From NCBI RefSeq assembly GCF_024218795.1, contig NZ_CP100400.1, forward strand, positions 2,418,001 through 2,482,000: DNA of 64,000 nt, read 5' to 3'. The translations under genes and the position numbers were made by a program. This DNA is from Halorussus aquaticus. Lineage in GTDB: Archaea; Halobacteriota; Halobacteria; Halobacteriales; Haladaptataceae. Under the pieces are notes generated by a model that did no database searches, was not told the origin of the DNA, and saw nothing but the letters and a program-made list of their open reading frames with translations. Shown here one piece after another: positions 5,402 to 18,121 of this stretch (within the stretch, counting starts at the first letter, position 1; every line of letters starts with the position of its first letter).

Positions 5402-6253
5402 TCAGTCACCTCCCGCGAGGGGCCGCATCGTCTCGACGACCTCCTCCATGGCCGCCTCGTCGTCGGGTTCGACCACCGTCGCCTCGCGCTCGGAGGGAGC
5501 CTTCGGAATCGGGTCCACGCCCGAGACGATGGTCGGCGACCCGTCGAGACCGATGAAGTCCGGGTCGAGGTCGAGGTCCTCGGCGCTCCACGTCGTGAGG
5601 TGGTCCTCGTAGTTCGCCACGCGCTCCTTGGTCTCGGCCTTCAGTCGCTTGTGCCGGAGTCGATGCTCGGCCCGCCGGTAGGACGGTTCGAACTCGGGGT
5701 CGGTCACGACGAACGCGGGCAGGGGAGCCTCGACGGTCTCTATCTCGTCCACGTCGCCCTCCACGAGTCGCTTCGCGCGGAGGCGGCCCGCCTCCTCGTC
5801 TATATCCACGGAGATGACGTGAGTCACGATGGGCCGGTCGAGACACCAACTCGTCTGTGGGCCGGTCTGACCGGTCTCGCCGTCCGCGGTCTTGAACCCC
5901 GCGAACACGAGGTCCGGTTCGGTCTCCATCTTCTCGATGCCCGCCGAGAGCGTGATGGAGGTGGACCACGTGTCGGCCGCGGCCATCTCGCGGTCCGAGA
6001 GCAAGTAGAGGTCGTCGGCGTACACGCTCATCGCTTCCTCCAGTACGCTCTCGTAACCCGGTGGTCCCATGCTCATCACGCTCACGGTCCCGCCGCGCTT
6101 GACCTTGGTCTGGAGCGCGGCCTGCAGCGCGAACTCGTCGTTGGGGTTCATCACCGTGGGGGTCGCGCCGCGTTCGAGGTGGCCGTCTTCGTCGAACGAC
6201 ACCTGTCCCTCTCGGAAGTCGGGGACGCCCTTCGTCAACACTACCGAGTGCAT
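5402..6253 (-). CDS. fixA: Electron transfer flavoprotein beta subunit (FixA)
   Basis: The 283-residue product starts at the ATG at 6253 (MHSVVLTKGVPDFREGQVSF). It has the ETF beta pattern: the central ALQTKVKRGGTVSVMSMGPPGYESVLEEAMS region in two parts, followed by TADGETGQTGPQTSWCLDRP where NADH and the AMP or FAD moiety bind in the family. It pairs with FixB to split electrons from NADH between ferredoxin and quinone. It is the first gene of the fixA-fixB-fixC operon. An upstream in-frame ATG at 6313 lies in the promoter region and was rejected. Confidence 0.94.
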   Translation of the reverse strand: MHSVVLTKGVPDFREGQVSFDEDGHLERGATPTVMNPNDEFALQAALQTKVKRGGTVSVMSMGPPGYESVLEEAMSVYADDLYLLSDREMAAADTWSTSITLSAGIEKMETEPDLVFAGFKTADGETGQTGPQTSWCLDRPIVTHVISVDIDEEAGRLRAKRLVEGDVDEIETVEAPLPAFVVTDPEFEPSYRRAEHRLRHKRLKAETKERVANYEDHLTTWSAEDLDLDPDFIGLDGSPTIVSGVDPIPKAPSEREATVVEPDDEAAMEEVVETMRPLAGGD

Positions 6254-6286
6254 TGACACCACCTGACGCGAGTGAGTCTCTCTCCC

Positions 6287-6320
6287 ATGTTCCGTGGGAC
6301 ATTTCACCCTCAATGTTTAT
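6287..6320 (-). promoter_or_regulatory. fix operon promoter with imperfect inverted repeat
   Basis: On the minus strand a TATA-like AATAAACA (about 6313-6320) precedes fixA. An inverted repeat, ATGTTCC-GT-GGGACAT with one mismatch, lies at 6287-6302 near the expected transcription start. This would leave a leader of about 35 bases before the ATG. A regulator site is inferred only from position. Confidence 0.4.
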
Positions 6321-6504
6321 TACATTATCCCCGACACTGCGAATGGCGGTTCGAGCGCGAGAACGAGGACACGAACGACCAGTAGCACTACCCGGAATTC
6401 GTCTCGGTAATAGAACTGTGTCCTCGACAGACTATGCCGTCGGCGTCTAATTTTCCACGACCGACCGGAACTCACTGGGAGTCCATCCCGGTTCGGACGG
6501 AGGA

Positions 6505-17426: not shown

Positions 17427-17440
17427 GAAAAGAAAAGGGG
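17427..17440 (-). terminator. T-rich terminator after cysteine-rich precursor
   Basis: On the minus strand CCCCTTTTCTTTTCG follows the stop codon by about nine bases, the form of an archaeal oligo-T terminator. Confidence 0.5.
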
Positions 17441-17448
17441 CCGTTCGG

Positions 17449-18069
17449 TCAGCAGACGTCGTCCGAACAGGCGCAGTCCGTGGAGTACACGTAGCAATTT
17501 CTGCAGTTTTGGTCGCAGTTGTACGTGTTCTGCTTCTTGTAGTTCTCCGCACAACACTCTTCGACGCAGCCAGTGTAACTACACCCCTGTGGGGTCACCT
17601 CCGAGTCGGTGACGATGAACCGCCGGTCGCCGTCCTTCGGCTCGACGAGGGCGTAGGCTTCGTCGCGCTCCGGTTGAACGTACAGGCCGATTTCGTGGGT
17701 ATCGCTACTCGTGGAGGCCATACCGAGCGCAGTCACCGTCTCTTTCTCGACGGTTCCGGTGACGCCAGCGAGACGGTCCTCTGCGGTCGGTTCCAACCCG
17801 GTCACGTCCGGGTCGATGTCGAAGTTCACGTCACCGAAGTCGAACTCTTCGCTGACGAACCCCGCGTCCACCAACTGTTGTCGGAGTCCTGCACCGTGTT
17901 GTTCGAACGCGACCCGTAGTCTGCGCTCGTTGCGGTAGTTACGAGCGAGACGGTCGGATTCGGCGACCACGGTTCCGGTCGTCGTGGTCAGTCCGGTGCC
18001 GACGACGGCAGCCGCACCGATAGTCTTGAGGACGCTTCGCCGGTCGAGCCGCTTGTTATCACCGTGCAT
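17449..18069 (-). CDS. Tat-exported precursor with C-terminal ten-cysteine domain (halocin-like)
   Basis: The 206-residue product has a Tat signal (DRRSVLKTIG, Arg10-Arg11) and a hydrophobic stretch to a likely cleavage near VVAES (residue 38). Residues 39-160 are a cysteine-free acidic domain. The last 46 residues hold ten cysteines (163, 168, 172, 173, 185, 189, 192, 199, 201, 206), the final one being the last residue. This matches the layout of the halocin C8 precursor (Tat signal, immunity-type domain, ten-cysteine peptide), but I see no clear sequence match. A secreted peptide antibiotic or other disulfide-rich secreted domain are both possible. No dedicated transporter or protease gene is adjacent. 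Confidence 0.8.
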   Translation of the reverse strand: MHGDNKRLDRRSVLKTIGAAAVVGTGLTTTTGTVVAESDRLARNYRNERRLRVAFEQHGAGLRQQLVDAGFVSEEFDFGDVNFDIDPDVTGLEPTAEDRLAGVTGTVEKETVTALGMASTSSDTHEIGLYVQPERDEAYALVEPKDGDRRFIVTDSEVTPQGCSYTGCVEECCAENYKKQNTYNCDQNCRNCYVYSTDCACSDDVC

Positions 18070-18093: not shown

Positions 18094-18121
18094 ATTTTAA
18101 ATCTATTCTAGTATACTAGAA
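18094..18121 (-). promoter_or_regulatory. Promoter and 16-bp palindrome of cysteine-rich precursor gene
   Basis: A TATA box (ATTTAAAAT on the minus strand, 18094-18102) lies about 29 bases before the ATG. Immediately upstream, 18106-18121 reads TTCTAGTATACTAGAA, a perfect 16-bp palindrome occupying the BRE/activator position. This suggests regulated expression by a dimeric protein. Confidence 0.6.

Follow-up and report, generated by a model that had tools for sequence, protein, structure and literature searches.

A haloarchaeal family of putative Tat-exported precursors with cysteine-rich tails that resembles the halocin C8 precursor in outline

Conotoxin- and defensin-type precursors combine a conserved leader with a variable cysteine-rich core. 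Among haloarchaea, the halocin C8 precursor ProC8 has 283 amino acids, is exported by the twin-arginine translocation (Tat) route and yields a mature peptide of 76 amino acids, according to a review, which also states that most described halocins have not yet been fully sequenced (PMC11509114). Haloarchaeal extracellular serine proteases are reported to be able to activate a secreted precursor of another kind (PMC12893001). Here, we analyzed 64,000 nucleotides of the Halorussus aquaticus genome (NCBI RefSeq assembly GCF_024218795.1, contig NZ_CP100400.1, positions 2,418,001 to 2,482,000 of the forward strand; this whole stretch is called the window), in which a gene on the minus strand encodes the protein P0001 at 17449..18069. 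P0001 is a real feature and belongs to a haloarchaeal family that is unannotated. By analogy, its best reading is that the precursor functions along the same broad lines as that of halocin C8 and stands outside the halocin C8 family. The specific explanation that we favor, tentatively and with somewhat less than even confidence, is a Tat-exported precursor of a disulfide-rich peptide that would serve as a halocin-like antagonist in the first place and as a signal in the second. Labels beginning with P, L, G and C are our own handles for proteins, loci, genomes and contigs. The gene and its parts are the following (pLDDT, predicted local distance difference test):

17449..18069, minus strand: precursor gene, 206 amino acids plus stop codon, based on the reading frame and 31 homologues
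17962..18069, minus strand: Tat-type signal, residues 1-36, with DRRSVLK, a hydrophobic stretch and GTVVA; pLDDT is below 50 for residues 1-33
17599..17961, minus strand: cysteine-free middle domain (putative pro-domain), residues 37-157, with helices at 37-43, 48-58 and 60-68 and then beta strands
17587..17598, minus strand: linker VTPQ, residues 158-161, a putative processing site by its likeness to the halocin C8 boundary
17452..17586, minus strand: cysteine-rich C-terminal domain (the tail), residues 162-206, 45 amino acids with ten cysteines, the putative mature peptide

The signal of P0001 consists of DRRSVLK followed by a hydrophobic stretch ending in GTVVA-ES, and R10 and R11 are nearly invariant across the 32 alignment rows. 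The Tat profiles of Pfam and NCBIfam match P0001 weakly, below their curated cut-offs, so the Tat assignment is based on the motif and on its conservation. Ten cysteines are located at residues 163, 168, 172, 173, 185, 189, 192, 199, 201 and 206, and none elsewhere in the protein. The tail begins with GCSYTGC, and its calculated mass of 5070.5 would drop to about 5.06 kDa with five disulfides formed. A preliminary description of this locus, made from the letters alone, had proposed a Tat signal, a cysteine-free middle domain and a ten-cysteine tail with cysteine as the last residue, that is, the layout of the halocin C8 precursor. All of these parts were recovered here: the RR motif is present in P0001 and its homologues, with HMM scores (HMM, hidden Markov model) staying under the cut-off, and the tail is now delimited as residues 162-206. 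The architecture is not a product of chance, because 31 homologues at 46-87% identity, found in a search of 5.8 billion proteins, keep the same architecture.

P0001 belongs to a family of considerable breadth, in which P0020 is 56% and P0036 25% identical to it. Matches at an expectation value (E) of 0.001 were found in 22 of 99 genomes of relatives, two of them (G034 and G079) in the signal region only. A 30-member profile, with seven candidates scored per genome, gave matches at E 1e-5 in 76 of the 391 genomes of the class, several rows being signal-only; by hand count, matches covering the middle domain at E 1e-11 or better occur in 37 of the 391. In the phylum sample, matches at E 1e-8 are confined to 4 of 294 genomes, namely the own genome and three of the same order. 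The own genome gave 14 rows, of which seven, including P0001, are strong members (E 1.1e-14 or better); the other seven are weak and restricted to the first 85 profile positions. A middle-domain HMM lacking both signal and tail (hereafter the Tat-free HMM) retrieved 99 rows at E 0.01 from the fetched DNA, which represent 63 distinct open reading frames (ORFs). Tandem copies occur at L129 (three copies), L130 and L132, and at L131 a small gene separates two divergent copies.

In Pfam and NCBIfam, P0001 had no more than weak hits, chiefly with Tat models, and 30 diverse members had hits with Tat models plus one marginal TafE match (one member, E 0.0094); PADLOC gave no match, and PHROGs nothing useful (four proteins). 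The tail of P0001 has no domain match in the libraries searched, including the clear match to a known non-toxic domain that had been named beforehand as speaking against a halocin-like precursor. The proposal of an undescribed secreted system thus holds in that the family is unannotated, but the gene is not a one-off: it is a member of a diverse family with seven strong copies in its own genome. Among the titles listed by the literature searches, none is about the P0001 family, and a 2019 census of archaeal antimicrobial peptides, outside the reach of those searches, may list some members.

The cysteine pattern is the most regular property of the tails. Four of the 63 ORFs were left out of the parity count: L006:2906-3499 and L070:3072-3599, which are truncated by the locus end, L023:94-756, which represents the second frame of a copy with a frameshift, and L017, which has no cysteine-rich tail and is possibly damaged. 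The remaining 59 tails carry 6-20 cysteines in 49 adjacency layouts, with counts of 10 (23 tails), 12 (13 tails), 8 (nine), 14 (seven), 6 (three), 16 (two) and 20 (two). The number is even in 59/59 tails of the genome set and in 32/32 of the homologue set, with a few sequences common to both; if L017 with its three cysteines past the domain start is included, it is even in 59/60. Odds calculated for parity, as well as for the linker and CTAG motifs below, are overstated, since related sequences were counted in them as independent. Five of the ten cysteine columns of P0001 are cysteine in all 32 rows and the other five in 28-31, so that the loss of cysteines in close relatives, likewise named beforehand as an adverse sign, is limited: most cysteines are retained, and those lost go mostly in pairs. 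Cysteines 172 and 206 are jointly absent in P0018 and P0020, 163 and 189 are jointly absent in P0025, and the extra cysteine columns 221 and 231 co-occur in 14 of the 32 rows. Because the cysteine number is even and losses and gains are mostly paired, disulfide bonds in the tail are very probable, and the joint losses predict C163-C189 and C172-C206 as two of them. Grouping the tails by identity (15 clusters, the largest with 37) suffered from chaining via short overlaps and was not used.

Compared with halocin C8, the P0001 precursor shares a Tat signal, a cysteine-free first part and a ten-cysteine C-terminal part, both parts being encoded in one gene; the linker at the boundary may be of a related type (VTPA, VTTQ, VTPQ). 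The tails themselves differ. That of P0001 has 45 amino acids versus 76 in halocin C8; both have ten cysteines with unlike spacing, and members of the P0001 family have 6-20. The P0001 tail is hydrophilic and predicted to be beta, with a grand average of hydropathy (GRAVY) of -0.71, whereas that of halocin C8 is hydrophobic (+0.89), and its model, with pLDDT below 50 in this part, shows helices. The halocin-like reading of the preliminary description is partly supported: the layout agrees with halocin C8, and the character of the tail does not. At the sequence level, TIGR04449 (halocin C8 domain) was not among the NCBIfam matches of P0001 at E 10 with HMMER filters on, and PF22862 (halocin-8-like N-terminal domain), which matches halocin C8 (P0040) at E 4.5e-48, was not listed for P0001 at E 10; each was found in 0/30 diverse members at E 0.01. 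HHalign comparison of the first part of the P0001 family with HalI, the immunity part of the halocin C8 precursor, gave probabilities of 0.6% and 1.1% (earlier tries at most 1.15%) versus 99.4% for a within-family control. The 99 rows of the Tat-free HMM include no match among the loci from the TIGR04449 searches, and its full-sensitivity run on 12 ProC8 sequences gave a best E of 0.012, below the inclusion threshold. Matches of the family profile to ProC8-type proteins (e.g. G034:C4 and G239:C3, with TIGR04449 in the same frames) were discarded, since they start at the Tat signal. Homology with halocin C8 was thus rejected at the sequence level by TIGR04449, PF22862 and HHalign, which agrees with the absence of similarity first noted by eye.

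Two other types of precursor are comparable. Like the conotoxin/defensin type, the P0001 family has a conserved carrier, many cysteine frameworks and paralogues within one genome; unlike it, the family is archaeal, appears to use Tat-type export and has a folded domain of ~120 residues as its carrier. HFX_0892 (HmHapP) of Haloferax mediterranei, likened here by description only, is a secreted precursor from which an extracellular serine protease produces an antagonist; it differs in that activity resides in an N-terminus with alpha helices, and the word cysteine does not occur in the main text (PMC12893001).

Halocin-C8-domain proteins are present in the same genus as the window. In the own genome, L047 (G000:C1:3103163-3103363) encodes a halocin-C8-like protein with 20.5 bits versus a family cut-off of 24 and with the linker GEVTTQ. 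In L032, L035, L043 and L045, halocin-C8-domain proteins have a first part that is unlike HalI by eye, and the halocin C8 tail, too, may occur on several carriers.

L031 encodes a 283-residue protein that is 98% identical to a UniRef entry named halocin C8, and its last 76 residues contain ten cysteines and start with DIDITGC. Because this protein has 283 amino acids and the mature peptide 76, the cut in halocin C8 would have to lie after PTPA. At the same position, relatives read VTPA, LTPA, LTPS, ITTQ and VTTQ, and others IAPT, PAPA, PSPA and IEPQ. In the P0001 clade (P0001 and its homologues), V[ST]P is found at the linker in 25 of 32 proteins. A strict motif, [VIFA][ST][TP]Q within 20 residues before the tail, is present in 9/58 family members (L023:372-920 also being left out) and in 11/37 halocin-C8-like proteins (41 loci minus L033, whose frame was misread, with three repeats merged). 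It is rare or absent elsewhere in the first part, and a background estimate over genes at these loci, including those of the family, puts its chance at 0.0023 per protein. By analogy, we infer that the linker motif marks a processing site common to the P0001 family and halocin C8.

In the proposed mechanism, a Tat-type route would export the two-part precursor, whose middle domain, common to the whole family, may act as a folding scaffold and carrier and possibly in self-protection. An extracellular or surface protease would probably cut the linker after VTPQ and free the peptide, and the last 45 residues would form a small five-disulfide domain that is active outside the cell. Use against or towards neighboring cells appears most likely, with a halocin-like antagonist placed before a signal, because paralogues in haloarchaea come in sets that combine one carrier with differing tails. 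We strongly infer a secreted and disulfide-bonded tail and moderately, by analogy, its release by a protease at the linker; the function of the peptide and the role of the middle domain are guesses. The likeness to halocin C8 and the variety of tails agree with antagonism, and signaling or inhibition would be possible too. If the tails are released, the family would supply candidate peptides across many haloarchaea, with a cut site predicted for some of them, and would allow one to test whether peptide precursors of unrelated origin in haloarchaea share a single route of export and processing. Another conceivable use of the tails is as salt-stable disulfide scaffolds. A large unannotated haloarchaeal arsenal, with one folded carrier exporting dozens of disulfide-locked peptides via Tat as an archaeal counterpart of conotoxins and defensins, and with a second, unrelated halocin-like lineage on the export and cutting route of halocin C8, is a broader picture that we regard as doubtful.

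A number of observations weigh against a released halocin-like antagonist. The data would also fit a signal, an inhibitor or a binding domain that is never cleaved, and the acidic, hydrophilic tail of P0001 makes a membrane-disrupting action like that of halocin C8 unlikely. The strict linker motif is missing in 49/58 family members and 26/37 halocin-C8-like proteins, and halocin C8 itself (PTPA) falls outside it. No dedicated protease, transporter or immunity gene was seen by eye to recur beside family genes in 23 wider loci. The cysteine changes of five rows are not simple pairs: P0024 and P0028 have column 221 without 231, lack 206 and have 173 replaced by another position, and P0027, P0030 and P0032 have one shifted cysteine each, with even totals in all five. 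Evolution of the tails also gives a mixed picture. The 31 homologues are on average 62% identical to P0001 over the middle domain and 31% over the tail positions other than cysteine, and the tail is the least conserved part in the tandem pairs L132 (37% versus 62% in the middle domain) and L130 (32% versus 60%). The opposite was observed for the tandem pair L129 (tail 58%, middle domain 46%) and for the cross-genome pairs L006/L008 (80% versus 54%) and L083/L069 (74% versus 54%). Moreover, nonsynonymous divergence of the tail (dN) is lower than synonymous divergence (dS) in 6 of 10 pairs, the six in which dS could be estimated, which is unlike an arms race; positive selection on the tails is accordingly unsupported. 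The tails therefore look specialized and then kept, rather than ever-changing.

The strongest competitor is that the tail is never cut off and that the protein is one secreted two-domain binder, such as an extracellular protease inhibitor or a receptor-type binder, with paralogues differing in their target. The AlphaFold model of P0001 (mean pLDDT 84.7; predicted template modeling score, pTM, 0.79) has block means of 88-98 from residue 41 to the end and contains three helices followed by strands, with a confidently beta tail (strands 158-174, 177-186 and 192-202). The predicted strand 158-174 spans the putative cut, placing linker and tail in one confident fold as expected for an uncleaved two-domain protein. 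A strand at this place favors a compact precursor and forms the chief argument for a binder that stays whole, and purifying selection on the tails in the pairs where it could be estimated points the same way. On the other hand, the linker is similar to the boundary in halocin C8, its length differs greatly from paralogue to paralogue, and no known inhibitor family was matched in the libraries searched; a fold search with the P0001 model also gave no significant match. On balance, we consider an uncleaved binder rather unlikely.

Another possibility is that the tail is released as a pheromone-like signaling peptide under the control of a CTAG promoter element and is no toxin. Among the 57 family genes with a recognizable start, 14 have a CTAG starting at -60 to -41, versus 6/187 neighbor genes (9/187 when any early ATG is allowed as start) and 1/33 halocin-C8-like genes, the last being a further difference from halocin C8. 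CTAG anywhere upstream occurs in 19/57 family genes versus 18/186 controls; the family upstreams are more AT-rich, composition alone predicts 10-12 with CTAG, and 4/20 AT-rich controls have one. The positional excess (18 CTAG sites at -60 to -41 versus 2.8 expected by composition) is a better argument than the mere presence of CTAG. Five sites of CTAG-N4-CTAG are present in the own genome, two of them just upstream of family genes (the P0001 gene and the paralogue at C1:3248455); the reversed control pattern is commoner (11 versus 5). None of the other three (L140, L141 and L144) lies at a comparable distance upstream of a family gene, and the L141 site is at the start of a small regulator-like ORF. 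The shared element points to one regulator acting on part of the family, as far as upstream sequence can indicate, and the hydrophilic tail would also suit a signal. Nevertheless, a promoter element is evidence of regulation and not of function, no receptor or sensor gene recurs beside family genes (by eye, 23 wider loci), and the diversity of tails per genome exceeds the usual need of a signal, making a pure signaling role distinctly unlikely.

Metal binding by the tail, of the zinc ribbon or metallothionein type, for storage or redox purposes would agree with its richness in cysteines, including CxC and CC pairs, yet it is very improbable: P0001 has ten cysteines, counts are even but in 33/59 tails not multiples of four as Zn(Cys)4 sites would have them, distant cysteines are lost in pairs, and no metal-binding domain was found in Pfam or NCBIfam among 30 members, although metallothionein-type clusters have no fixed cysteine number and even parity is only indirectly against them. 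A diverged halocin C8 with homology in both parts, for which one could cite the equal layout, the similar linker motif and a first part with a similar order of elements (helices, then strands), is just as remote given the negative domain and HHalign comparisons and the different hydropathy of the tail.

The surroundings of the gene contain the following additional features:

18106..18121, no strand assigned: palindrome TTCTAGTATACTAGAA, a putative regulator site
18096..18101, minus strand: TATA-like box TTTAAA, based on sequence and retained in the G014 orthologue
17428..17436, minus strand: T-rich stretch, TTTTCTTTT on the coding strand, terminator-like by sequence only

The palindrome lies four bases upstream of the TTTAAA box on the coding strand, in keeping with the palindromic promoter of the preliminary description, and most of it is retained in the G014 orthologue; with up to three mismatches, it has one other site in the 4.74-Mb genome. 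The upstream neighbor is a divergent class II fumarase gene. Downstream, a same-strand ATP-binding cassette (ABC) solute-binding gene starts 139 base pairs away as the first gene of an ABC transporter operon, whose substrate we guess to be a sugar. Judging from this gene layout, the precursor gene probably stands alone as the single transcription unit that had been proposed. An ABC operon of the same kind adjoins P0001-type genes in several relatives (L126, L128 and L051), and other paralogues have other neighbors (by eye); the recurrence may perhaps reflect only shared gene order. At L051, from the metagenome-assembled genome SW_6_65_15, two family copies (94-920 and 5823-6491) flank the ABC operon, the first being split over two overlapping frames.

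In one relative, a subtilase gene with a Tat-like start (L127 8226-9647; Peptidase_S8, E 1.1e-43) directly adjoins a P0001-type gene and is a candidate for the processing enzyme; as one case, it proves nothing. Beside a family paralogue, the small ORF L124 8187-8396 (G000:C1:1965186-1965395) encodes a signal-like stretch, then VTTQSDVGTQGC and finally a short end rich in cysteines, and is perhaps another type of secreted peptide with the same linker motif.
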